From Pseudomonadota bacterium (lineage in GTDB: Bacteria; Desulfobacterota; Binatia; Binatales; Binataceae), in assembly GCA_021323945.1 (NCBI GenBank), contig JAJPKA010000017.1:219990-283989 (forward strand): a stretch of 64,000 bases of DNA. Reading direction: 5' to 3'. Below, piece by piece: positions 25,863 to 42,205 of the stretch. Position 1 is the first letter of the stretch. Each line of letters opens with the position of its first letter. The translations under genes and the position numbers were made by a program. The notes below the pieces were generated by a model. It was given only the letters and a program-made list of their open reading frames with translations, made no database searches and had not been told where the DNA came from.

Positions 25863-26138
25863 ACCGGTTCGGGTTGACCAATACGGTCTCGGGCCGCGCC
25901 CTTCGGCGTGGCCCGCACCCTTGACGATCTAAACTCGCAAAACGTAGTTCCGGTTCCAGCTAGGTTCATCAGCCAGCGCAGCGCCTGCTAGATCGCCATC
26001 ACTTACAACACCGAACGAGGTGATCCGTGCGTGGAGACCAAGGGGCCAGCCGATTGGGCTGTTGACAATCGGTTCAATAGCCAGGCTCATTGTTTGACAG
26101 TGACGAACTGGCCTTTATAGTGTTCGGCGAGAGTTGAT

Positions 26139-26777
26139 ATGGAACGGCAAGCGCGGCGTCAGCAGGTCCTGCAACACGCCAAACGGATTTTCGCCAGAAA
26201 AGGTTACCATCGTACCAATATCTCCGACATTGTTGCACGGGCCCGCATAGCCCGTGGCACGTTTTATCTTTACTTCGAAAACAAGAAAGAGCTGTTCGAG
26301 GAATTACTGGAGCAGGTACTGGGTGAACTGAGACTGCGAATTCGACGCTTGCGAATTGGACCTGAAGAGCCTGAGCCGGTGGAGCAACTGCGTGACAATC
26401 TCAGGCGTGTGCTCAGCTTTCTCATTACGGAATGGGAGCTAACGGACATTTTGCTCAACCATTCCACCGGATTCGACCCAGAGCTTGATAGCAGGATTCG
26501 GGAATTCTACGAACGGGTCGCTGACCAAATCCAGCGTTCCTTGGACCTCGGGATTCAGATGGGGCTGGTTCGTGAGTGCGATACCAGGGCGGTCGCTTAT
26601 TGTATCCTCGGCGGTATCAAGGAGGTCGTGGGACAAGCGTCGCGTCATCGGCGTCGAGAGATCGGCCGGCTAGCGGAGGAAATCCTTGATTTCGGTCTGC
26701 GCGGCGTCGCTCGTCCTGACTTGCTCGCCGGTCTCCATCGTACTGAGGCCGTCGCGGCCGGGGCTTCCGCAAAGTAG
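26139..26777 (+). CDS. TetR/AcrR-family transcriptional regulator
   Basis: RQQVLQHAKRIFARKGYHRTNISDIVARARIARGTFYLYFENKKELFEELL. Confidence 0.93.
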   Translation: MERQARRQQVLQHAKRIFARKGYHRTNISDIVARARIARGTFYLYFENKKELFEELLEQVLGELRLRIRRLRIGPEEPEPVEQLRDNLRRVLSFLITEWELTDILLNHSTGFDPELDSRIREFYERVADQIQRSLDLGIQMGLVRECDTRAVAYCILGGIKEVVGQASRHRRREIGRLAEEILDFGLRGVARPDLLAGLHRTEAVAAGASAK

Positions 26778-26783
26778 ACTGAC

Positions 26784-27614
26784 ATGTCAGTATCGCGAGT
26801 GCCAAAGGGGCGTGGCGCGTCAGCCCGGCGGCTTTCCGGCCGATCGAAACCGCAGCGGGCGGGTGCCACGCTACAGCAGGTCAAGGGCTTCGCCTTTTAC
26901 GACGTTGATGGCACATTGGTCGATTTGAACCTACTGCATGCGACGATGTTTGTGCTGGCAAACTTGAGCGAATGGAGCGGGCGGCTCCGATATGCACTAA
27001 GCTTTGCCGCGCGCTTACCCCGGCTTTACTTGGCTGAACGAAATGATCGGCGCGTGCTCAACGAGGCGCTCTTCGAGTGTTTCAAGGGTATCTCGCGCGA
27101 TCGTCTGCGAGCTCTCGGGGAAGAATTTTGCGACCGAATTTTGCTGTCGCATCTCTATCCGCACGCTAGAGACCTGATTGAAGCCAATCGCGCGGCTGGT
27201 TTCGAACCGGTGCTGGTGACCGGCTCGCCCGATTTCATTATTGAGCCGCTGGCCCAACGGCTCAAGATTGAGGACTTTGCAGCCAATCGTCTCGTGTTCA
27301 GCGGAGGTTTGGCGACGGGTCGTCTGCATCCACCAGTTATGGCCGGCGAAGACAAAGCTCAGTGGTGTGAAACTTATGCGAGCTCTCGCGGCTTTTCTCT
27401 CGATTCGTGCTGGGGCTACGCCGACTCCTATTACGATCTGCCCTTTTTAGCAGCGATGGGGCATGCGGTCGCGGTTAATCCGGACCGGCGACTCGCAGCC
27501 GCAGCGCGCGCTCGGCACTGGCCCGTTATGTGGTTTGCGAAGACGCTGGCCGCTGCTAATCGCCCGGCAACGTTCCAGCTGGGGGATGGGAGGAGACTGA
27601 ATGGCGCGTCCTGA
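26784..27614 (+). CDS. HAD-IB-family hydrolase (SerB-like phosphatase)
   Basis: FAFYDVDGTLVDLN, PVLVTGSPDFIIEPLAQRL, CWGYADSYYDLPFLAAMGHAVAVNPDRRL. Confidence 0.88.
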   Translation: MSVSRVPKGRGASARRLSGRSKPQRAGATLQQVKGFAFYDVDGTLVDLNLLHATMFVLANLSEWSGRLRYALSFAARLPRLYLAERNDRRVLNEALFECFKGISRDRLRALGEEFCDRILLSHLYPHARDLIEANRAAGFEPVLVTGSPDFIIEPLAQRLKIEDFAANRLVFSGGLATGRLHPPVMAGEDKAQWCETYASSRGFSLDSCWGYADSYYDLPFLAAMGHAVAVNPDRRLAAAARARHWPVMWFAKTLAAANRPATFQLGDGRRLNGAS

Positions 27615-29241
27615 AGCGCGGCTCGGTGAACTCAAACTGCCGGAACTACGCTATGACCTCGAAGCGCGGCGGGAACTGGTCGTGACCCTCAACCGTCGCT
27701 CGCAACCGCGGCTCATTCCGTATGGCGAGGATTTTTTGGTCGAAAAACTGCCCGCGGGTACGCGAGTAATCTACCCGCCACCCCCGCTCGAGGCCTTGCC
27801 CGACCCCGACATGGCGATTCGGTACGCGCTGCTGCGCCCGCTGAATGCTGACCCGCTGTTTGCGCAGTTGAACCCCAATCTGCGAGTAACGATTGCAATC
27901 GACGATATCAGCTTGCCATTGCCGCCGATGCGCCGCCCCGATATACGCGAGCGACTGCTGAACGCAGTGTTGCAGACACTGGCAGATTATGGGGTTGACG
28001 ACGTTCACCTGATTATTGCCACTTCACTGCACCGGCGCATGACCGAGAGCGAGATCCGCAGGATGGTGGGTGAGCGTGCGTTCAAGCAATTCTGGCCCGA
28101 GCGGCTGTACAACTTTGATGCGGAGAACCGCAGTGAGCTGGTGATGCTCGGGAAGACCGAGATGGGGGAAGAAGTCTGGTTATCTCGCCGTGCGGCCGAA
28201 TCCGACCTTTTGATTTACCTCAACATCAATCTGGTTCCCATGGATGGTGGACACAAGTCGGTCGCAGTTGGACTGGCTCCCTACCAAAGCCTGCGTCACC
28301 ACCATAATCCGTCCACGCTACGCCGCTCTCATTCCTACATGGATCCGCGCAACTCGGCCCTGCATCATTCGGCCGATCGCATTGGCAGGTTGATTAACCG
28401 ACAGTTGAACGTGTTTTCCATCGAAACCGCAATCAACACCCGGATGTACGGGCCGATGCTCGACTTCCTGCACAAGAATGAAGACCGCTTCACTGACTGG
28501 GATCGATGGCGGCTCAAGGGCTTCCGCTGGACGGTCGGCGCAATGTCCCGCGAATTACGCCGCGAGGCGCTTTATCGATATGCGGCACCCTATGGAATGA
28601 CGGGGGTATGGGCAGGTGAAACTGAAACTGTCCATCAGCACGCCCTGGCTCGTGTCTTTCAGCAATACGCAGTGCCAGTCAAAGGACAGTCGGACATCTT
28701 GATTGTGGGCGTCCCCTACATCTGTCCGTACAACGTTAATTCGATCATGAATCCGGTGCTGGTGCAGTGCACGGGACTTGGCTACCTGTTCAACATGTTC
28801 CGCAACAAACCTCTGGTGAAGCCCGGTGGCACGATGATTATCTGCCACCCACTACGCGATGAGTTTCATCCCGAGCATCATCCGAGCTACATCGAATTCT
28901 TCCATCGCTGTCTAAGTGAAACGACCGACTCACTCGAGCTCGAGAAGAGGTTTGAGGCCGAATTCGCACGCAATCCCACCTACATCCACATGTACCGCTA
29001 CGGTCATGCCTACCATGGGGTCCATCCGTTCTACATGTGGTATTGGGGCGAGCCCGGGCGGCAACATTGCGCCCGAGTGATCGCTGCGGGTTGCGAAGAG
29101 CCCGAGGTTGCCAAGCGGCTCGGTTGGGAGGCAGCGGATACGTTGGACGAGGCCATTGCGATGGCAGCCTCGCCCTATGGACGTTCGGCCACAATAACTT
29201 ATCTCCATTTACCGCCTTTGGTCATCGCCGATGTCGAATGA
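27601..29241 (+). CDS. DUF2088/LarA-like (lactate racemase superfamily) protein, 546 aa
   Basis: VTIAIDDISLPLPPM, HLIIATSLHRRMTESEIRRMVGERAF, MDGGHKSVAVGLAPYQSLRHHHN; overlaps the HAD gene by 14 bp. Confidence 0.78.
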   Translation: MARPEARLGELKLPELRYDLEARRELVVTLNRRSQPRLIPYGEDFLVEKLPAGTRVIYPPPPLEALPDPDMAIRYALLRPLNADPLFAQLNPNLRVTIAIDDISLPLPPMRRPDIRERLLNAVLQTLADYGVDDVHLIIATSLHRRMTESEIRRMVGERAFKQFWPERLYNFDAENRSELVMLGKTEMGEEVWLSRRAAESDLLIYLNINLVPMDGGHKSVAVGLAPYQSLRHHHNPSTLRRSHSYMDPRNSALHHSADRIGRLINRQLNVFSIETAINTRMYGPMLDFLHKNEDRFTDWDRWRLKGFRWTVGAMSRELRREALYRYAAPYGMTGVWAGETETVHQHALARVFQQYAVPVKGQSDILIVGVPYICPYNVNSIMNPVLVQCTGLGYLFNMFRNKPLVKPGGTMIICHPLRDEFHPEHHPSYIEFFHRCLSETTDSLELEKRFEAEFARNPTYIHMYRYGHAYHGVHPFYMWYWGEPGRQHCARVIAAGCEEPEVAKRLGWEAADTLDEAIAMAASPYGRSATITYLHLPPLVIADVE

Positions 29242-32200
29242 TCATCCAGCTCATCCTTCTGTTGCGTCGACTCCGGGCCCGCTGCCGCCACTGGCGGAGG
29301 TTTTAAGCGGAAGAAACGTGCTGCTCACCGGTGCGACCGGTTTTCTGGGCAAGGTCATACTTTACCTGCTCCTGCGCCGACACCCGGAAATCAACTGCAT
29401 CTACCTGCTAATCCGGGGAGACAGCAAGTCGAGTTTAAACCGCTTCAGGCGTGAGGTTCTTGATTCGCCGGTAATGGGCCCTTTGCGCGAGTATCTGAAC
29501 GGCGGGTTCGAACGTTATGTGGAAGAACGTGTCACGGTACTGGCGGGCGACATTACGACGCCAGGCCTAATCGGTAAGGACGCCGTGCTGCACAGCAAGC
29601 CCGACGTCGTTATTCACTGCGCGGGCCTGGTAAACTTCGAGGCGTCGCTGGAAAAGGCGCTTAACATTAATGTAATTGGCGTCAAGAACGTAATCGACTT
29701 CTGCCGCAAACGAGGCGCTGCACTTATTCACGTTTCGACCTGCTACGTTGCTGGTGCCGCCGATGGTCATCGATTCGAAGATGAGCTGCCGGTTGACTGG
29801 TGCCCCGGCGGCGAATCCAAATTCAGTGTGCAATGTGAGATTAAAGACGCCTTGGCGACTTGCGAACGGGTAGAGGCTGAATCTCGCGACCGCCTGCGAA
29901 ACTTATCCGCGAGCGACGTCGAGGACAATAGTGCTGAATTGGCGGACGATACCCGCCGCAAACAATGGATTGAGGAACAGCTCAAAGAGCGCGGTCGTGA
30001 GCGGGCGCGGCGATGGGGCTGGCCCAATACATATAGCTATAGCAAAAGCCTGGGCGAACAATTGGTGCTCGGCGCGCGTGATCTCACCGCTACCGTGGTC
30101 CGTCCATCGGTCATCGAGAGTGCGCTCAAGGATCCTTTCCCAGGCTGGAACCAGGGGGCCAACACCAGCGCGCCGCTGACTTACCTATCCGGTCGCGGTT
30201 ACCGGTTTTATCCGGCACGCCCTAATCTGGTTCTGGATGTTATCCCTGTCGATCTCGTGGCCAATGCCATCATTCCGATAATGGGGGCATTGCTGTTGGG
30301 GCGTCACCAGCAGATTTATCAGCTCTGTACTTCTGATGTGAATCCGCTGCCAATGCGCCGGCTGGTCGAACTAACGGCTCTGAGTAATCGCCGAGAGCAT
30401 CGGCGCAACGACGGTCCGCTGGGAAAATTGGCACCCCACCTGGAGGCGGTGGTGGTGGGCCACAACACCTATGAGCTGGTAAGTCGGATCTTGCCAGCCC
30501 TCCTGCAACGGCTGGCTACCCTGGTGCAGGTCGTCGCTGCGGATCGGGCCCTGGTCCGCAAACTCGACCAGAGTATTGCGCGCATTTGTCAAAGCACAGA
30601 ATTGGCGCGCTCGCTGATCGAAGTTTATCGACCGTACATTCAGGAGCTGGCTTATACCTTCCATGGTCGCAACATTCGGGACTTATACTCGGCGCTGAAC
30701 CCTGCCGACGTCGCGCAACATCCCTACGAGCCTGAGAAGATCGACTGGAATGACTACTGGATTAATGTTCATTTGCCCGGCCTTAGGCGTCACGTTTTTC
30801 CCCAGCTCGACCTGCATACGCGCGGACGAACACGGCCGCTGCTGCGGCACAAGACCCTAATTGAGCTGATAGAGCGAGCAGCGGAACGCTTCGAATCCAA
30901 ACCGGCACTCGAGGTTCGCAAGCCTTCGGGTCAGCGCAGTTCGCTCTCCTACAGGGAACTGCGCGACGGAGCGCGTCGCGCCGGTTTGTTACTTGCCAGC
31001 CGGGGCATCGAGGCCGGCGACCGGGTGCTGCTGATAGCCGAGAATTCCCCGGACTGGGTAGTGGCCTACTTTGCCATCATCTATGCCGGTGCCGTTGCGG
31101 TTCCCCTCGACCATCTGATTTCCGGCGAAGAGCTTGCAGCAATTTGTCGCATCGCTGAACCGCGGGCTGCCCTGATGTCGACAGCCTGCCTGCAGCGGCT
31201 GGACCACATTCTGCAGACGAACTGGCCCGAGCTGCTTCGACTGGAACTGGGTGAACTCGGCCGGCCATTTCTGCTGCGGGGCAAAGCGCAGGCGGCGGTA
31301 AACGTCCAGCGCAAAACGCTCGCCTCAATCGTTTTCACTTCCGGGACCACGGGAACGCCCAAAGGCGTAATGCTGACGCATGGCAACTTCACTGCGGAGG
31401 TAATGATGCTCGGGCGCGTTTTTGCGCTCGACACCAACGACGTTGTCTTATCGCTGTTGCCACTTCATCACACCTTTGAGTTTACCTGCGGGATGTTGTT
31501 ACCGTTGGCGAGCGGAGCACGCATCGTTTATCCGCTCGGGGTCGACGCTTCAAACCTTGCACGCACGCTGGCCGACGTGCGACCGACTGCGCTCATCGGG
31601 GTTCCCGCCCTCTGGGAGGCGATTCATCGGCGCATCCTTGACCAGGTCGAAGCCGGGGGTCCGTTTTATATGGCGGCGTTTGACCGACTTCGAGATTTAA
31701 ACCGGCGTCTCGACAGCGACTATCATGTCAACCTGGGTCATCTCATTTTTCGACCGGCGCACGCCGCCCTCGGGGGCCGACTCAAATTGGCAGTCAGCGG
31801 CGGAGCGGCGCTGCCCCCGCGTGTGGCGCAGTTCTTTAATGATATCGGGATCAAATTGCTCGAGGGTTATGGTCTGACCGAATCAGCGCCGGTCCTCAGC
31901 GTTGCGCGGCCGGAGGAACCTCTGGTGTGCGGCTCCGTGGGCAAGCCGCTGGCCGGAATCGAAGTGAAGCTGGAAACCGCACCCGGTGAGGAAGTTGGCG
32001 AGATAGTGGTGCGTGGCCCCAATATCATGAGCGGTTACTTCCGCAACCCCGCCGCAACCGAGGCCGTGCTGAAGGAGGGCTGGCTTCACACAGGAGATCT
32101 GGGGCGTTTCGACCAGGATGGTCGACTTTATATCGTGGGCCGGGCCAAGGACGTCATCGTGGACTCCGGCGGCAACAACATTTACATCGACGAGCTGGAG

Positions 32201-33553
32201 GAGATTTATGGCCGTTCGCCGTTAGTCAAGGAAATCGCGGTTGTCGGGCTAAAGATTGGGCAGGGAGAACAAGTCGCAGCCTTGGTGGTGCCAGCCTATG
32301 CACGCGGAGAAAGTCGCCGAGCAGTCGAAGACCGGGTGCGCGAACACTTCGAGCAGACAGCCAAGGGGCTCAGTCCGCATAAGCGAATCAAGATTTTGCG
32401 GTTCGTCGACTCCGAGTTACCGCGAACGCGGACACGAAAGATTAAGCGGGCTGAGGTCGCGGCGATTCTGGAGCGTATGCTGGAAAGCCATATGGCTGAG
32501 GCCACCGCGGTGGGGACTGAAGTTGAGCCCTGGCTCGTGCATGCGCTGGCCCAGGTAGCCGGCGATGCTGGGTCGATCTCTCCAGGGACTCGATTAATCG
32601 AAGACCTCGGCCTCGATTCTTTGGCTTTGGCGGAGCTGAGCGAGCAGATCGCGGTACGATCGGGCCGCGAACTAAGCGCGGAACAGTTGTCAAATCTCCG
32701 TACCGTTCAGGATCTTCAACGTGCGATCAGCGATGGCCGCGATCGGCCCCGCCTGCCATCGTACGCCCAGCTGGCGCGCCCATATGTAGTCGAACTGCCG
32801 GGCCCATTAAGGCGGCTGGGCCAGTTGGCCACTCATCGTTCGATGGAAGCGTTGTTCGCGACCATGTTGAAACCGCAGATCTTGGGCCGCGGCAACGTGC
32901 CGACCAATCGCAACGTACTCGTCGTGGCCAATCATGCGAGTCACGTGGATTTTGGCTTAATTAGCTATGCCCTGGGTGTGATGGGGCGTGAGCTGGTAGT
33001 GCTGGCCGCCAAGGACTACTTCTTCAACAATGCCATCCGCCGTTTTCTGGCCACCAATTTCACTCGACTCATCCCGTTCGATCGCGAGCGCGCCCAGTTG
33101 GAGTCGCTCGATCAAGCGATGGCCGAGCTTGCAGCGGGACGCAGCGTACTGATGTTTCCGGAGGGAACCAGGTCGGTCGACGGCTCGATTCAGGAATTCA
33201 AAAGCGGGGTAGGGTATCTGGCGCTTAATAGCGGTTACGACGTCCTCCCGGTCAGGCTCAGTGGAACCCACGCGGTATTGGGCAAAGGAAGTTTGATACC
33301 GCAGCGGGCACCGGTGGAAGTCCGCATCGGCGCGCCCATCTCGAACGCAGCACTACGCTCAGTCGTACAGAACACCGAAGGCGCCGGTGCTTATCGCCAG
33401 ATTGCCGATTATCTCCGAGCAACGGTCATCGCATTGGGGCAGCCTGGGCCGCGCGTAGCCAGTCTCAATCAAGGCTCGGCGGAATCCAGTGTCAGCAGCA
33501 CGGAGCGAGACTCGCATGACAAAGTCGACGCAAGGCGGCGGCGCGCACCCTGA
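29231..33553 (+). CDS. multidomain enzyme: N-terminal fatty-acyl/thioester reductase (NAD-binding_4), AMP-dependent ligase, acyl-carrier domain, C-terminal PlsC-type acyltransferase
   Basis: LLTGATGFLGKVILYLLLRR and YSYSKSLGEQLV; IVFTSGTTGTPKGVMLTHGN, GYGLTESAPV, HTGDLGRF; LIEDLGLDSLALAEL (phosphopantetheine Ser); NHASHVDFG (HX4D) and FPEGTRS. Confidence 0.9.
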   Translation: MSNDHPAHPSVASTPGPLPPLAEVLSGRNVLLTGATGFLGKVILYLLLRRHPEINCIYLLIRGDSKSSLNRFRREVLDSPVMGPLREYLNGGFERYVEERVTVLAGDITTPGLIGKDAVLHSKPDVVIHCAGLVNFEASLEKALNINVIGVKNVIDFCRKRGAALIHVSTCYVAGAADGHRFEDELPVDWCPGGESKFSVQCEIKDALATCERVEAESRDRLRNLSASDVEDNSAELADDTRRKQWIEEQLKERGRERARRWGWPNTYSYSKSLGEQLVLGARDLTATVVRPSVIESALKDPFPGWNQGANTSAPLTYLSGRGYRFYPARPNLVLDVIPVDLVANAIIPIMGALLLGRHQQIYQLCTSDVNPLPMRRLVELTALSNRREHRRNDGPLGKLAPHLEAVVVGHNTYELVSRILPALLQRLATLVQVVAADRALVRKLDQSIARICQSTELARSLIEVYRPYIQELAYTFHGRNIRDLYSALNPADVAQHPYEPEKIDWNDYWINVHLPGLRRHVFPQLDLHTRGRTRPLLRHKTLIELIERAAERFESKPALEVRKPSGQRSSLSYRELRDGARRAGLLLASRGIEAGDRVLLIAENSPDWVVAYFAIIYAGAVAVPLDHLISGEELAAICRIAEPRAALMSTACLQRLDHILQTNWPELLRLELGELGRPFLLRGKAQAAVNVQRKTLASIVFTSGTTGTPKGVMLTHGNFTAEVMMLGRVFALDTNDVVLSLLPLHHTFEFTCGMLLPLASGARIVYPLGVDASNLARTLADVRPTALIGVPALWEAIHRRILDQVEAGGPFYMAAFDRLRDLNRRLDSDYHVNLGHLIFRPAHAALGGRLKLAVSGGAALPPRVAQFFNDIGIKLLEGYGLTESAPVLSVARPEEPLVCGSVGKPLAGIEVKLETAPGEEVGEIVVRGPNIMSGYFRNPAATEAVLKEGWLHTGDLGRFDQDGRLYIVGRAKDVIVDSGGNNIYIDELEEIYGRSPLVKEIAVVGLKIGQGEQVAALVVPAYARGESRRAVEDRVREHFEQTAKGLSPHKRIKILRFVDSELPRTRTRKIKRAEVAAILERMLESHMAEATAVGTEVEPWLVHALAQVAGDAGSISPGTRLIEDLGLDSLALAELSEQIAVRSGRELSAEQLSNLRTVQDLQRAISDGRDRPRLPSYAQLARPYVVELPGPLRRLGQLATHRSMEALFATMLKPQILGRGNVPTNRNVLVVANHASHVDFGLISYALGVMGRELVVLAAKDYFFNNAIRRFLATNFTRLIPFDRERAQLESLDQAMAELAAGRSVLMFPEGTRSVDGSIQEFKSGVGYLALNSGYDVLPVRLSGTHAVLGKGSLIPQRAPVEVRIGAPISNAALRSVVQNTEGAGAYRQIADYLRATVIALGQPGPRVASLNQGSAESSVSSTERDSHDKVDARRRRAP

Positions 33554-33828: not shown

Positions 33829-34094
33829 CTATCGCTCCTTCGAAAAGGCTTAATGGAGCGGGGGAGCAATACACGCGCCATTTGTAAGCTACAAGATAGC
33901 ATAGATTAGCTCATTGCTAATTAGATGCGCGTCAATTTTTGGTCACCCGCGACCAACAGTGCGGCGCTACACCGTTAATACTGTCAATGAAAGCACCTTT
34001 GGCAACGTCCGAAAGTCCGAGCCGAAGCTGTAGAAGCGTTCGGATTCAGACCTGTCAAGATCGCGGGCCGACGCACCCGACCAGCGCTTACGGT

Positions 34095-34186
34095 TTATGT
34101 TCCCTGTAGATGACGCGTTATGTTCCCTGTAGATGACGCGTTATGTTCCCTGTAGATGACGCGTTATGTTCCCTGTAGATGACGCG
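34095..34186. repeat. four perfect 23-bp tandem repeats, the last spanning the hemB stop codon
   Basis: ttatgttccctgtagatgacgcg at 34095, 34118, 34141 and 34164. Minus-strand reading of the fourth copy is ...R-H-L-Q-G-T-stop, the HemB C-terminus. Confidence 0.98.
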
Positions 34187-35141
34187 CGACTTGAGTCGCG
34201 AAGTAGCTTAGAATCAGGTCGGCGCCAGCGCGCTTTATGGCTGTGAGAACTTCCATCGTCGCTCGCTCTTCATCCAACCAGCCGTTGATTCCCGCGGCGC
34301 GGATCATCGAGTATTCACCCGACACATTGTAGGCGGCCACTGGCACATTGAACTCCTGCTTGGCACGGTAGATCAGATCCAGGTAGGCCAACGCCGGTTT
34401 CACCATTACGATATCGGCCCCTTCCTCGAGGTCGAGCGCGATTTCGCGCATGGCCTCATCGCCGTTCGGCGGGTCCATCTGATACGAGCGCCGATCACCG
34501 AATCGGGGTGCGGATTCCGCCGCCTCGCGAAACGGGCCGTAAAATGCCGAGGCGAATTTGGCTGAATAGGCCAGGATGGGGATATGGCTGAAGTTTTCAG
34601 CGTCCAATGCGTTTCTGATCGCTGCCACCCGCCCATCCATCATGTCGGACGGGGCCACCATATCGGCGCCAGCTCGCACATGAGAGAGCGCTTCACGAAC
34701 CAGTAGTTCAAGCGTCGCATCATTGTCGACGTCATTCCCGGTGATCAGTCCGCAGTGGCCATGGTCGGTATATTCGCACAGACAGACATCGGTGATTACT
34801 ACCAGACCTGGCACATGTTCTTTGATTTCTCGGATCGCTGTCTGTACCGGGCCTTCAGCATCCCACGCGCTTGAACCACGGTGGTCCTTCTTTTCCGGAA
34901 TACCAAAAAGAATGATCGCTGGCACACCAACCGCATAGGTTTCCCGGGCAGCTCGCACCACTTCATCGGGCGACATCTGCGCCACCCCTGGCATTGCGCT
35001 CACGGGCTTGCTGATGCCACGCCCGGAACACACAAAGTAAGGTTGGATGAAATCATTGGGCGTGAGAATCGTTTCGCGCACCATGCGGCGCAGGGCTTCA
35101 GTGCGGCGGAGGCGCCGTAGCCGATTTGCCGGAAATCCCAT
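34164..35141 (-). CDS. hemB: porphobilinogen synthase (delta-aminolevulinate dehydratase)
   Basis: [87 protein letters not shown]. Confidence 0.95.
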
Positions 35142-35197
35142 TTGAACTCACCGAAGGCTGGTCATCAACTCATCTTTCAGTCGTCAAGCTCGTTAGG

Positions 35198-36727
35198 CTA
35201 AGGGGATGGCGAGCGAAAATATTTTAAAATCGTAGCCAGCAGGCCGTCCACCGTATACTCGGGAGAACTAACGACCAGGTCGAAGCCGTGCGCGCGTGCG
35301 GTTGCTGCAGTGATTGGACCAATAGCCGCTGCTTTGACACCTTCAACCCGTTCGCCGACCATCGCGCAGAAATTCCTGACAGCGCTGGAGCTGGCAAAGG
35401 TAACCAGATCTATTGCCCGGTTTCGAACCAGCTGTCGCATTCGTTCTAAGTTAGCATTTCCTGGGATTACGGTCTTGTAAGCAGGTGCCACCAATACTTC
35501 TTTTGCCCCGTTGGCATAGAGTAGGCGGGGCAGGATTTCCCTGGCGACCTGGGCTCGCGGTATCAGGATTCGAGCCCCCGCGATGTTGCCCGGGCCTAGA
35601 GTCGCGGCCAGTGCTTCAGCGCGATATTCGTCCGGGCGAGCGGCAACTGTCAGCCCATAATCGACCAGCCTGGCCGCGGTCGCGGGACCGATTGCGGCGA
35701 TTCGCGCGCCGCTGGTCGCACGGATGTCAATTTTCAAGTTCCGCAAACGGTCAACGAAGGCGTCGACGCCGGTTGCGCTCGTGAAGATAATCCAGTCAAA
35801 GGACTGGATGCGGCCTATCGCGGCGTCGAGCTGTGCATAGCTGTCAGGAGGTTCGGTCGCGATCGTCGGAAATTCGATCGCCTCCGCACCCAAATGGCGC
35901 AGCCGAGTGGCAAATGCGGCCGCCTCCTTTGCGGCACGTGTTACCACGATACGTCGGCCGAAGAGAGGGAGGCGCTCCGCCCAACTCAGCCTTGGGCCCA
36001 AACCAGCGCACTGACCTACCACAACGACGAGAGGCGCGGTCAAGCCCGCATTTTCGACCTCATCCGACAAGGACCCCAGGGTGCCGATTACTGTTTTTTG
36101 AGCAGCGGTCGTACCCCATTGAATGGCGGCGCAGGGCGTTGTGGCTGGCAGGCCTCCTGCAGCTAAGCGCTCGAGATTGCGCCGCAAATGAGCACTGGCC
36201 ATCAGAATCACGAGCGTGCCACGTGCGCTGATGATCTGTGCCAGCTCCTCCCATTGAAAAGGTCCCGAGGTTTTTTCGTCGTCATGGTGGCCAGGTACAA
36301 AGGCCACTAACGAGCCATACTCACGATGAGTCAGCGGAATACCGGCGTACGCAGGCACTGCGATCGCGGAACTCACCCCGGGCACAACTTCGAACTCGAT
36401 GCCGGCTGCCGCCAAGGCCTCTGCTTCCTCACCGCCGCGACCAAAAACAAACGGGTCGCCTCCCTTCAGGCGCACAACCTGCTTGCCGGCGCGTGCGTGC
36501 TCAATCAGGATTTGATTTATCATCGGCTGGTCAAATTGCTTGGAGCCGCTTCCGACCTTGCCGACGAAAATGCGTTCGGCCCTGGCCGGAGCCATCTGCA
36601 CCAGGTCGGCACTCGCCAAATAGTCGTAGACGACCGTATCGGCCAACCGCAATATTTCGGCGCCGCGAACGGTGATCAGATCGGGAGCTCCAGGTCCAGC
36701 GCCGACCAGATAAACCTTGCCTGTCAT
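35198..36727 (-). CDS. cobA-hemD: fused uroporphyrinogen-III C-methyltransferase / uroporphyrinogen-III synthase
   Basis: GKVYLVGAGPGAPDLITVRGAEILRLADTVVYDYL, VRLKGGDPFVFGRGGEEAEAL, then HemD-like C-terminal half. Start set at MTGKVYLVG (36725-36727), directly after the hemC stop. Confidence 0.92.
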   Translation of the reverse strand: MTGKVYLVGAGPGAPDLITVRGAEILRLADTVVYDYLASADLVQMAPARAERIFVGKVGSGSKQFDQPMINQILIEHARAGKQVVRLKGGDPFVFGRGGEEAEALAAAGIEFEVVPGVSSAIAVPAYAGIPLTHREYGSLVAFVPGHHDDEKTSGPFQWEELAQIISARGTLVILMASAHLRRNLERLAAGGLPATTPCAAIQWGTTAAQKTVIGTLGSLSDEVENAGLTAPLVVVVGQCAGLGPRLSWAERLPLFGRRIVVTRAAKEAAAFATRLRHLGAEAIEFPTIATEPPDSYAQLDAAIGRIQSFDWIIFTSATGVDAFVDRLRNLKIDIRATSGARIAAIGPATAARLVDYGLTVAARPDEYRAEALAATLGPGNIAGARILIPRAQVAREILPRLLYANGAKEVLVAPAYKTVIPGNANLERMRQLVRNRAIDLVTFASSSAVRNFCAMVGERVEGVKAAAIGPITAATARAHGFDLVVSSPEYTVDGLLATILKYFRSPSP

Positions 36728-36728
36728 G

Positions 36729-37811
36729 TTATTGACCGCCGAGGAGCTCGCCGGCATCTCGCTCCAACATCAGGTGCCCGAGCCTTTCACCCAGGTGAAC
36801 AGCAGCGCGCTCGAGCGGCTCGCCGTTACGCGACGGCCCTTCATCCGTTAATTCCGCCTCCAGACTCCGCGAACCATCGGGGCTGAACAATTGGGCCCGC
36901 AGTGTGAGACTCTGGCTGACGACTTTACAGTTCACACCTACAGGTGACGCGCAGGAAGCCCCTATTGTAGCTAGGAATGAGCGTTCGGCCGTAATCTCCG
37001 CCAAACTGGGAACGTGGGTGAGATCGCGCACGGCAGCTTCGATTTCCATTGAACCGCCGACGTAAGATTCGCACAAAGCTTCAACCGCCAGGGCACCCTG
37101 GCCGCCCGGCGGGACGAAGTCGGGCGGCTGCAACTCGGTTAGGTGGATTGGCTCTGATCCCGCGACCTCTGAACCCTCCTCGCGTCCTGCCCTCGCAAGC
37201 GTCTGGCGAAGCTCACCAGCACCTGGTGCAGCCAGTACCAGTTCGGTGCAGAGTAGCCCGGCATCAGTCGTGCTCCAAAGACCAAGGCGCCTCAGTCCCG
37301 CTGCCGCAAGAATGATCGCGTCGAAATCCCGATTGCGTAGCCTGCGCAGGCGCGTGTCGACATTGCCACGCAACGCCAGCACTTCGAGATCGTGTCGGAT
37401 GCGCAGAGCCTGCAAGCGTCTCCTGAGAGACGATGTGCCGAGACGGGCACCTCGGGGGAGTGCCTGCCAGCCACCATCTCCATGTGCCAACAACACGTCA
37501 CAAGGGGATTCGCGACGCGGCACCGCGACGAGGCGATACTGCGGCGGCAGGGTCGCCGGCAGGTCCTTCATAGAATGAACCGCGACGTCGATCCGGCCTT
37601 CGCTCAGGGCCTCTTCCAGTTCGCGCACAAACAGGCCTTTGCCGCCGAGCCGCACGAGCGACGCTGAGGCAATCTTGTCGCCGCTAGTCCTGATGGGGAC
37701 AATCTCCACGGCGACTTTGCCCAGGCGTGCGCGCAACGCTTGGGCAATTGTTGCCGCCTGTGCCAGGGCGAGGGCGCTCGGCCGCGCACCGATCCGTAAA
37801 GCCATTGACAT
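36729..37811 (-). CDS. hemC: hydroxymethylbilane synthase (porphobilinogen deaminase)
   Basis: LRIGARPSALALAQA, GGKGLFVRELEEALSEGRIDVAVHSMKDLP, GTSSLRRRLQALRIRHDLEVLALRGNVDTRLRRL, GASCASPVG. Confidence 0.93.
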   Translation of the reverse strand: MSMALRIGARPSALALAQAATIAQALRARLGKVAVEIVPIRTSGDKIASASLVRLGGKGLFVRELEEALSEGRIDVAVHSMKDLPATLPPQYRLVAVPRRESPCDVLLAHGDGGWQALPRGARLGTSSLRRRLQALRIRHDLEVLALRGNVDTRLRRLRNRDFDAIILAAAGLRRLGLWSTTDAGLLCTELVLAAPGAGELRQTLARAGREEGSEVAGSEPIHLTELQPPDFVPPGGQGALAVEALCESYVGGSMEIEAAVRDLTHVPSLAEITAERSFLATIGASCASPVGVNCKVVSQSLTLRAQLFSPDGSRSLEAELTDEGPSRNGEPLERAAVHLGERLGHLMLERDAGELLGGQ

Positions 37812-38943: not shown

Positions 38944-40077
38944 TCAAGGCGAGCTGATGAGCAGATGCTGAGGTCGGGGACGAGCTTGGCTCGCCACCAC
39001 TGCAGGAAACTGGTCAACAATACCGTCTGGTGAAAACCGGCCCAGCATTCCGTTGGGTTGTGTGAACCAAAGGTAGCCATCGCGGTTCCAAGTGATCATG
39101 CCGGGCATGAGATCGTCGCCGAGCACATAGACTCGTTGACTCCCATCATCGGCCAGCCTGCAGAGAGCATGAGCAACTGGCACCGTGACCCAAACGTAAG
39201 CTTCACTGGCGGTGATGCCGACCGGGGGTCCGTGGACCGCCAGTGCATACTCATAGATGTGGCCGGAAACAGTGAAGCGTCCCACTTTTTCAGCGGCGAA
39301 CTCCGTGAACCAGATATCGCCGTCGCTGGCGGTGATTACACCGTCGGGTCGGGCATCTCTGGTCGGTAAGGGAAATTCCTCAACTCTGCCATCCATCGAC
39401 AGTCGGTCGATCCGATTGCCCGTGTTTTCGGCTATGTACAGACGATGGTCCCTTCCTTCTGCGATGCCCGCTGGCCCTCCGCCGTGCGGGAGGAGAAATT
39501 CTGTCAAAGTCCCCAGCGGCGTCAGGCGGGCAACCCGATTGGCAGCGTGTTCCGTGATCCAGAGGTTTCCGTCGCTCCCACTTATGATTCCGGCAGGCCC
39601 GCTATCGGGTGTTGGCAAGGGCACATATGCGGTGGTTCCGTCGAGCCCTAGCCGGCCAATGCGGTTTCCAGCCGGATCAGTAAACCAAATTGCACCGTCA
39701 GGCCCTGCGGTGAGTCGTTCAGCCAAGGCGCCCTTCCCCAGGTCGAAGGAAGAAATCTCTGCGGCGGGCGTGACGCGCCCGATAGCCGAGGCGCGGAGCT
39801 CGCTGAACCAGAGATTGCCGTCCGGTCCGACTGCGATTGCAAACGGGGTCATTCGCTTTGAGATTTTAGCCTCTGGCCGAGGATTATTTGCCGAGGAGGG
39901 GACCGGCGGGAAATTTTCGGTCAGGCGGCGCAGGCTCGAGAGCGAAGGGAGTTTACTTAAATTTGCACAAGCACAGACCGCCAGCGCCGTCCATGCTCCG
40001 AGCAGCAGGCCTGGGAAGAGGCGTCCGAACCGGTCCCGGGCAATGATAGCCAAGGGACGGCTTACTACATTATTCAC
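38944..40077 (-). CDS. Vgb-like (virginiamycin B lyase family) beta-propeller protein, exported
   Basis: Repeated blades: GPDGNLWFSELRASAIGRVTP, GPDGAIWFTDPAGNRIGRLG, GSDGNLWITEHAANRVARLTP, ASDGDIWFTEFAAEKVGRFT. Confidence 0.83.
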   Translation of the reverse strand: MNNVVSRPLAIIARDRFGRLFPGLLLGAWTALAVCACANLSKLPSLSSLRRLTENFPPVPSSANNPRPEAKISKRMTPFAIAVGPDGNLWFSELRASAIGRVTPAAEISSFDLGKGALAERLTAGPDGAIWFTDPAGNRIGRLGLDGTTAYVPLPTPDSGPAGIISGSDGNLWITEHAANRVARLTPLGTLTEFLLPHGGGPAGIAEGRDHRLYIAENTGNRIDRLSMDGRVEEFPLPTRDARPDGVITASDGDIWFTEFAAEKVGRFTVSGHIYEYALAVHGPPVGITASEAYVWVTVPVAHALCRLADDGSQRVYVLGDDLMPGMITWNRDGYLWFTQPNGMLGRFSPDGIVDQFPAVVASQARPRPQHLLISSP

Positions 40078-40630: not shown

Positions 40631-42205
40631 TCAGAATGGACTAGACGTCAAAACGTCGCGTGCATACACGTCCCAGAGTTTACCGAAAAACAGCCGAGCG
40701 AACTCATTGAGAGCCGTCAACCGTTCGGCCATCGTAGGCGCTTGAACGCGAAAGGTCGTGAGCTGCCTCTGGAAATCAAGCATATTTATTATAATAATGC
40801 CGGCGCCGACACTTAGCGCGGCCAATGCTTGAGGATCGCTGGCCGCGGCATCCTCAGCCTCCTTGGTAACGTGCCCGTTAAGGATACGAGTGTAAAGGGT
40901 GGTGGTCGCGCGCCATACATCCGAGCCCGCTTCCTCTTTGATGTGCTTGGCACCACTGAGGGTTAAGTCCAGCCCGTTCTGATCTGTGAAGAAAAGCCGG
41001 TACAGCATGTATTTGACGGCTGGGTCAGTGCTATCGACGAAAAGATTGAACTGTCCGCGCTGGATTGCGCATTGCCCCCCAAAAGCACGACTCGCGACGT
41101 AGCCGGCGACATCACTGGTGTCGTGCTCGGGGCGAACGACAAAGGAGTGGACGCCGTTGATTGTGATTGTGAGATGAAACATCAGGTCAGTGCCGGCCGC
41201 CTTGCCCTTATCTGCGCCAGCGGCGAAATCAGTCTCGCCGAGCGACCAGAATCCTTTCATTTCTTCGGTGAAAGAGAGCGCGGTTGGAATTTCATTGACG
41301 TAGATGGGGTATTCGGGACCTTTGCGCGAAAACGAAATATTGTTTGCCCGACACCATTCCCTGGCGCGTTGAACACCGAGGTTTACGGTTTCGATCAGTC
41401 GATCCTGACTGAAATCGACCAGGTAATGGAGCGCAACATCCGCTTTGAGCTCCTTGACCGCTATGAATCGACCAAATTCGCCCGCCCGCCCGTTTGCTAC
41501 GGCTGTATTGTTTGCCTCGATGCGCCTGCGCATCGCCTTGTAATGACCATCCGCGCTAGTCTCGATTATCTGGAAGTAATTAGCGACAAAACCGGGATGC
41601 CATTCATCCTTTTCACTGACCGTCCAAATAACCCAGAGTTCATCCGCTCCGCGGTTTATCGCCTCCTCGAGGTTGGCATCGGTCAGGAAAACGGCGTCGA
41701 TAAATGTTTCGCCCCCGATACGGACCGGCGGAAACCACATTGGAAGCGAGACACACGCAACGAGCAGGTCTTCGCTCATGTTACGAGGTTCGATGACCTC
41801 TAATTCTTTGCGGCTGAAGTTGAAAACGTTGAAGGTTGCATTGAGAGCGGTGGTTCTAATCCTGTTCCAGTCCAGCCCCCATTTTGGGAATACGCGGCTG
41901 CGATAGGCGTCGAGGGTGAACAGAGATTCGGCATAGGCCAGCCTGGCTAGTTGCGCGGGATTGAAGCTGATACCGGCAAGCGGGTCGAGATTGCGCCAGT
42001 TGTCGGCAATCTGGGTCCCGCTCATCCCCTGACACATCATCGCCAGGTTGAACACACCGCCGCTGGCGCCATCCACGTGATGAAATTCGAGGCCTGCCTC
42101 GTCGAGCCAGACCTGCAGCACACCGGCCTGAAACGCTACCTTTATTCCACCTCCGGCAAGAATCAGCGAACGTCTATGGCCTTGGCTGTTGGTCTGATTC
42201 ATCAA
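40631..42205 (-). CDS. patatin-like phospholipase-family protein
   Basis: LILAGGGIKVAFQAGVLQVWLDEAGLEFHHVDGASGGVFNLAM (oxyanion Gly-rich loop plus GASGG nucleophile). Confidence 0.83.
   Translation of the reverse strand: MMNQTNSQGHRRSLILAGGGIKVAFQAGVLQVWLDEAGLEFHHVDGASGGVFNLAMMCQGMSGTQIADNWRNLDPLAGISFNPAQLARLAYAESLFTLDAYRSRVFPKWGLDWNRIRTTALNATFNVFNFSRKELEVIEPRNMSEDLLVACVSLPMWFPPVRIGGETFIDAVFLTDANLEEAINRGADELWVIWTVSEKDEWHPGFVANYFQIIETSADGHYKAMRRRIEANNTAVANGRAGEFGRFIAVKELKADVALHYLVDFSQDRLIETVNLGVQRAREWCRANNISFSRKGPEYPIYVNEIPTALSFTEEMKGFWSLGETDFAAGADKGKAAGTDLMFHLTITINGVHSFVVRPEHDTSDVAGYVASRAFGGQCAIQRGQFNLFVDSTDPAVKYMLYRLFFTDQNGLDLTLSGAKHIKEEAGSDVWRATTTLYTRILNGHVTKEAEDAAASDPQALAALSVGAGIIIINMLDFQRQLTTFRVQAPTMAERLTALNEFARLFFGKLWDVYARDVLTSSPF

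Follow-up and report, generated by a model that had tools for sequence, protein, structure and literature searches.

A TetR-led, elb-type candidate ether-lipid operon in which the ElbC protein is a single-histidine LarA homolog

Introduction

Four closely packed genes in the window (the whole 64-kb stretch of bacterial DNA analysed here) encode a TetR regulator, a HAD-family enzyme, a LarA-like protein and a 1440-aa multidomain enzyme, and they raise the question of which lipid such a set would make and what a relative of lactate racemase would do beside a lipid megaenzyme. A preliminary description of this DNA pointed to ElbD of Myxococcus, proposed an ether, alkyl or otherwise modified membrane lipid as the product, and named the LarA-like protein as the least explained part. 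Our analysis supports that interpretation in part: the relation to ElbD and the co-conservation of the genes stand, and the role given to the LarA-like protein, action on a 2-hydroxy intermediate, proves half right. The elb genes are used as marker genes for organisms that make branched tetraethers, lipids employed as climate proxies, and in M. xanthus the light-induced carotenoid color depends on ether lipids.

Operons of this type are already known, and ElbD homologs have been found in many phyla (PMC11868695; PMC9426513). As far as the searched literature shows, three points are new: the recognition that ElbC is a single-histidine LarA homolog and a near-constant partner of ElbD, a TetR-led elb variant without ElbE, and an Acidobacteria version of the core with a lipid kinase. 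In the papers searched, no text ties ElbC or the elb ether lipids to LarA, DUF2088 or lactate racemase.

Results

The ORF coordinates, all on the forward strand (Table 1), give exactly the 6-nt gap and the overlaps of 14 and 11 nt that the preliminary description attributed to the four genes, and Pfam domains confirm its reading of the 1440-aa protein as a reductase, AMP-ligase, carrier and PlsC-type acyltransferase. We limit the operon to these four genes because the next annotated gene downstream, of porphobilinogen synthase type (34164-35141), sits on the opposite strand. A good ribosome-binding site (GAGGAG) precedes the start codon of the LarA-like gene by 5 nt, and the overlapping start of the megaenzyme gene, ATGTCGA, is present in 11 of 13 same-family relatives, the same letters also encoding the conserved D-V-E C-terminus of the LarA-like protein. 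The likely operon promoter, TTGACA-16-TATAGT, is matched exactly only once in the window and never in 100 shuffles, and 16 of 19 compared sequences, the window counted in, have TTTGAC at 50-60 nt upstream of tetR. A palindromic TetR operator was considered and rejected: a 17-nt imperfect palindrome, GTTTGACAGTGACGAAC, overlaps the -35 element in the window, and relatives keep only TTTGAC. The best NCBIfam match of the TetR protein is the fatty-acid regulator FadR of Bacillus, and since its 65 bits fall far below the cut-off of 200, an acyl-CoA ligand is only a guess.

Table 1. Positions of the operon, its promoter, the megaenzyme domains and the key ElbC codons in the window.
Feature	Position	Strand	Remarks
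Promoter-like TTGACA-16-TATAGT, likely operon promoter	26094..26121	+	17 nt before tetR; 11/12 match
tetR	26139..26777	+	212 aa; TetR_N, TetR_C_24; 66-84% conserved in 13 relatives
HAD-IB phosphatase, ElbB equivalent	26784..27614	+	276 aa; Pfam HAD; four HAD motifs intact
LarA-like protein, ElbC equivalent	27601..29241	+	546 aa; Pfam Lar_N; NCBIfam NF052592 LarAH14/15/16
H144 codon, single catalytic histidine (LarA H108 position)	28030..28032	+	invariant in 81/81 homologs
K219 codon, NPN-tether lysine (LarA K184 position)	28255..28257	+	invariant in 81/81
H235 codon, nickel-ligand position (LarA H200)	28303..28305	+	invariant in 81/81
Megaenzyme, ElbD equivalent: reductase - AMP ligase - carrier - PlsC-type acyltransferase	29231..33553	+	1440 aa
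R domain, fatty acyl-CoA reductase (aa 32-347)	29324..30271	+	Pfam NAD_binding_4; structure match
Sterile / FAR C-terminal region (aa 450-523)	30578..30799	+	under Pfam cut-off
Adenylation (AMP-ligase) domain and C-terminal subdomain (aa 548-1070)	30872..32440	+	Pfam AMP-binding, C-domain
Carrier domain (aa 1101-1163)	32531..32719	+	Pfam PP-binding; attachment serine in DLGLDSL
PlsC-type acyltransferase domain (aa 1219-1343)	32885..33259	+	NHASHVD, FPEGTRS

The surroundings hold further features. About four 23-bp units, TTATGTTCCCTGTAGATGACGCG, repeat in tandem at 34090-34204, between the operon and the hemB-type gene, and the array extends into the 3' end of the hemB-type ORF. The reverse strand carries a tetrapyrrole gene row (34164-37811) for porphobilinogen synthase, a fused uroporphyrinogen-III methyltransferase/synthase and hydroxymethylbilane synthase, as well as genes for a streptogramin-lyase-like protein that scores under the resistance-model cut-offs (38944-40077) and a patatin-like phospholipase (40631-42205).

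Catalytic motifs are intact throughout the megaenzyme, with GATGFLG and YSYSK in the R domain, TSGTTGTPKGV in the adenylation domain, and the carrier and acyltransferase motifs listed in Table 1. Residues 21-523, spanning the R domain and the Sterile-like region, match the fatty acyl-CoA reductase structure 7eoz end to end (E 7.4e-54). Carboxylic acid reductases likewise combine a ligase, a carrier and a reductase on a single chain, but in the order A-T-R, whereas the window protein runs reductase-ligase-carrier-acyltransferase with a FAR-type reductase first and PlsC last; this assignment was rejected, the score being 178 bits against a cut-off of 1300. The HAD protein belongs to the HAD-IB class (TIGR01490 over cut-off), keeps the motifs DVDGT, TGS, K and DSxxD, and may act as a lipid phosphatase.

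The order of HAD, LarA-like protein and megaenzyme is that of the Myxococcus xanthus elb operon (MIBiG BGC0000871), which makes the ether lipids VEPE and AEPE. The published elbA-elbE genes encode a NAD-epimerase, a HAD protein, a 'protein of unknown function', ElbD and a second NAD-epimerase (PMC9131029), and five close-packed genes of Myxococcus sp. CA023, for a NAD-epimerase, a HAD-IB protein, a LarA homolog (LarAH), a 1474-aa reductase-ligase-carrier-acyltransferase and a NAD-epimerase, match them one for one. Because of this gene-for-gene match the window genes can be equated with elbBCD, an identification made through congeners of M. xanthus and the published gene list, M. xanthus itself lying outside our set of 80 loci. 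Between the window megaenzyme and CA023 ElbD, the alignment covers ElbD residues 13-1442 at 40% identity, and the domain order is the same (FAR reductase, ACS ligase, ACP, AGPAT-type acyltransferase), which bears out the relationship drawn in the preliminary description; the HAD (elbB) and elbC-type genes lie directly upstream of elbD, and the window ElbC is 55% identical to its Myxococcus counterpart.

The window operon differs from Myxococcus elb in that tetR comes first and elbA and elbE are missing. No elbA/elbE-type NAD-epimerase genes flank the operon in the window, and an ElbE equivalent elsewhere in the genome was rejected, as the best match (34%) is no better than in G015, a genome without the operon. 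With ElbA and ElbE sought and not found, we file the window as an elb variant (elbBCD) and not as a complete elb operon. ElbE is needed in Myxococcus (PMC9131029), and some other reductase may do its job in the window organism. The plasmalogen desaturase CarF is also absent from the window's genome by a search that finds it in Myxococcus genomes. Because gene order and domain order are homologous, the catalytic motifs are intact and the genes co-occur tightly, the window very probably carries an elb-type, TetR-led variant of the bacterial ether-lipid operon.

That co-occurrence was seen among 38 related genomes, of which 23 have both the LarA-like gene and the megaenzyme and 15 have neither. 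The 23 carriers of the LarA-like gene, two of them with fragments of it only, are the same 23 that have the megaenzyme, and the counts, drawn from genomes that share kinship, are not independent events. The 15 without either gene comprise 14 sampled genomes of the class's other families and G015 of the window's own family. All 13 same-family genomes examined keep the TetR, HAD, LarA-like and megaenzyme genes in the same order, an arrangement beyond coincidence, and among the operon's proteins ElbC shows the highest conservation in relatives (77-91%).

Scanning the LarA-like alignment A1 against genome contigs gave 80 loci, in Deltaproteobacteria-labelled MAGs, Myxococcota, Acidobacteria, Planctomycetota and others. 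A HAD gene lies at most 300 nt upstream of the LarA-like gene in 50 of the 64 loci with enough flank, and a reductase domain at most 2 kb downstream in 45 of 62. Fifteen genomes in which ElbC does not adjoin a megaenzyme were checked; 13 of these encode an enzyme of ElbD type at another place (complete or almost complete in 11, across two contig ends in one, and with reductase and acyltransferase parts in a single frame in one), and the other two, both Acidobacteria, have a stand-alone reductase only. From these locus counts and unlinked genomes, the constant parts are LarAH and the reductase, usually with the HAD protein. Megaenzyme homologs consistently lacking HAD and LarA-like neighbors had been named as evidence that would overturn the proposed pathway; the survey finds these genes kept with the megaenzyme, and the protein once called least explained turns out to be a near-constant partner of ElbD, namely ElbC.

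ElbC is the only Lar_N protein in the window's genome, as it is in four Myxococcus/Corallococcus genomes. In two Archangium-like genomes, G045 and G046 (loci L090 and L088), ElbC and ElbD are unlinked (in G045 about 8 kb separate them on a single contig), and each genome has a second Lar_N protein. One record titled Comamonas sp. KCTC 72670 (L105, BNCN01000002.1) carries elb genes 84-95% identical to those of Myxococcus and is probably mislabelled or mixed.

Its fold, its match to a curated model and most of its cofactor residues place ElbC in the LarA superfamily. The window protein scores 825.8 bits on NF052592 against a curated cut-off of 740 (849.4 bits for ElbC of CA023, locus L099), and it has the Lar_N domain, the two-domain LarA fold and the equivalents of LarA K184 and H200. 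Its AlphaFold model, built from 51 sequences (pLDDT 90.2, pTM 0.90), matches best the single-histidine LarA homologs 9q3k (E 5.8e-35) and 9q3j, followed by LarA and malate racemase structures, and sequence profiles give the same ranking. Residues were mapped through structure and profile alignments and PMC12611868. Besides the three residues of Table 1, the ribose aspartate D102 (LarA D72), Y377 and H475 (ligand-site Tyr307 and His401) and the distal H472 are invariant in 81 of 81 homologs. In the same 81, the position of the second catalytic histidine (H174) is Val212, inside a shortened loop, and that of the NPN-phosphate arginine or lysine (R75) is Leu, Val or Met, which counts against use of the nickel-pincer nucleotide (NPN).

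ElbC thus shares with lactate racemase LarA and the other two-histidine racemases the two-domain fold and the K184, H200, H108 and D72 equivalents, but differs from LarA in its missing second histidine and R75 and on the substrate side. With its nearest solved relatives, the single-histidine nickel-pincer proteins LarA_Sp (9q3k/9q2u) and LarA_Bw (9q3j), it has in common the NPN lysine, the nickel histidine, one catalytic histidine and the distal Tyr and His. It differs from them in being only about 20% identical, with some 47 extra residues between the domains, a Pro for His306, a hydrophobic residue for the phosphate Lys, lipid in place of sugar gene neighbors, and Val where they have a conserved Asn in the second histidine position. 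ElbC is not a two-histidine racemase, nor, judged from the alignment, an Asn-type single-histidine protein; N208, near Val212, is invariant and may supply a structural Asn at the H174 site. The proposal that the LarA-like protein acts on a 2-hydroxy intermediate is therefore only half right: a single-histidine LarA homolog is unlikely to carry out classical two-base racemization of a 2-hydroxy acid.

Discussion

The alternative that survives best makes ElbC an NPN epimerase or one-way racemase without a part in ether-bond formation, which would fix the configuration of glycerol C2, a hydroxy fatty acid or some small precursor. Every LarA homolog of known activity inverts C2 of a 2-hydroxy acid, and a one-way single-histidine racemase has been proposed for the nearest solved relatives (PMC12611868); however, the second catalytic histidine is missing in all 81 homologs and the neighbors are lipid enzymes, not those of 2-hydroxy-acid catabolism, and we regard this role as possible but unlikely. 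Early LarA surveys describe groups 14 and 15 as lacking H174 and suggest that they might carry out another hydride reaction; LarAH14 was inactive on the tested 2-hydroxy acids, which counts against NPN use by ElbC.

Turning to the product, the ether or alkyl lipid put forward in the preliminary description is well supported by homology to elb, given that elbD mutants lose ether lipids (PMC9131029), and is read here from the genes. ElbD ligase and carrier activities have been demonstrated in vitro, i15:0 aldehyde is missing in elbD mutants, and the Myxococcus AGPS homolog has a minor role in ether lipids (PMC9131029). An elbB insertion was only partly restored by elbD, a result ascribed to polarity (PMC9131029); since elbC lies downstream of elbB, a lack of ElbC could account for some of the deficit that remained. 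We conclude that the window operon probably makes an ether lipid, and since CarF is absent this would most likely be a saturated alkyl ether instead of a plasmalogen. In the window lineage the operon might instead make another reduced lipid, such as a fatty alcohol, a wax ester or an unusual acyl lipid. The FAR-type R domain and the failure to find an ElbE ortholog or CarF in the genome would suit such a product, and Pontiella, which has ElbD homologs (defined by similarity) and in which ether lipids were not found (PMC11868695), argues against the ether-lipid reading. The ElbB-ElbC-ElbD core is nevertheless kept whole and in order, and the window ElbD has the FAR domain that many ElbD-like homologs outside myxobacteria lack (PMC9131029), so that another reduced lipid appears improbable.

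We consider it fairly likely that ElbC uses NPN. The weakest alternative, in which ElbC would be the structural or scaffolding remnant of a LarA enzyme whose NPN chemistry is gone, draws on the loss of the R75 and H174 equivalents and the inactivity of LarAH14 on the substrates tried, but is very improbable given the residues invariant in 81 of 81 (the K184, H200, H108 and D72 equivalents, H472, H475 and Y377), an NPN-carrying LarA_Sp with one histidine (PMC12611868) and the high conservation of ElbC. LarB, LarC and LarE are encoded in the window's genome and do not discriminate; they were rejected as proof of NPN use, since genomes of the class without a Lar_N protein carry them too, and they speak for a capacity to make the cofactor but not for its use by ElbC. 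Five such genomes (G015, G024, G028, G029 and G030) seem to make the nickel-pincer cofactor without a known client enzyme. A lar cluster around LarC was also sought and rejected, the neighbors there being queE, galU, an L,D-transpeptidase gene and pcrA, without larA, larB or larE.

As a whole, the TetR-led elb variant with ElbB, ElbC and ElbD is the best explanation and a reasonably likely one. The ElbD ligase would load a fatty acid onto the ElbD carrier, the R domain would reduce an acyl thioester to a fatty aldehyde or alcohol, the acyltransferase would esterify a glycerol lipid, and the HAD enzyme would remove phosphate from a glycerol-lipid intermediate. ElbC, holding NPN on K219 and H235, could take hydride from a carbinol carbon, most likely glycerol C2, with H144 as the single base; a transient ketone would let the alkyl chain go on at C1, after which the hydride would be returned. 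One general base would be enough for an NPN enzyme that always meets the alcohol in the same configuration, and this hidden redox accords with a single histidine, a cofactor that is redox-neutral and the lipid enzymes next door; we nonetheless hold this specific step as tentative and doubtful.

The animal plasmalogen pathway, FAR1 - GNPAT - AGPS, likewise brings FAR, acyl activation and acyltransferase functions together, but the window operon has ElbC and the HAD enzyme where that pathway has AGPS. Animal AGPS works on a ketone substrate, DHAP, whose acyl group at C1 it replaces with an alkyl group, and the ElbC step would replace this FAD enzyme. The fullest form of the idea makes ElbC the missing ether-bond catalyst of an AGPS-independent bacterial pathway, in which nickel-pincer chemistry would oxidize C2 transiently, the fatty alcohol or aldehyde from ElbD would replace the C1 substituent, and the hydride would be returned; we rate it as slightly less probable even than the hydride step. 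As a member of the nickel-pincer LarA superfamily, ElbC is a concrete suspect for AGPS-independent alkyl ether bonds in aerobic bacteria, and the orphan LarA group LarAH14/15/16, which had no known substrate, gains a pathway. If the C2-oxidation reading is true, ElbC would be an NPN enzyme that acts on lipids and goes beyond plain racemization or epimerization.

In six Acidobacteria loci (L110, L117, L118, L138, L145 and L146) the genes after LarAH are of ElbE type and of diacylglycerol-kinase type, and this lipid kinase beside the core would point to a glycerolipid substrate. In L117 and L118 a stand-alone fatty-acyl reductase gene lies between the ElbE-type and diacylglycerol-kinase-type genes.
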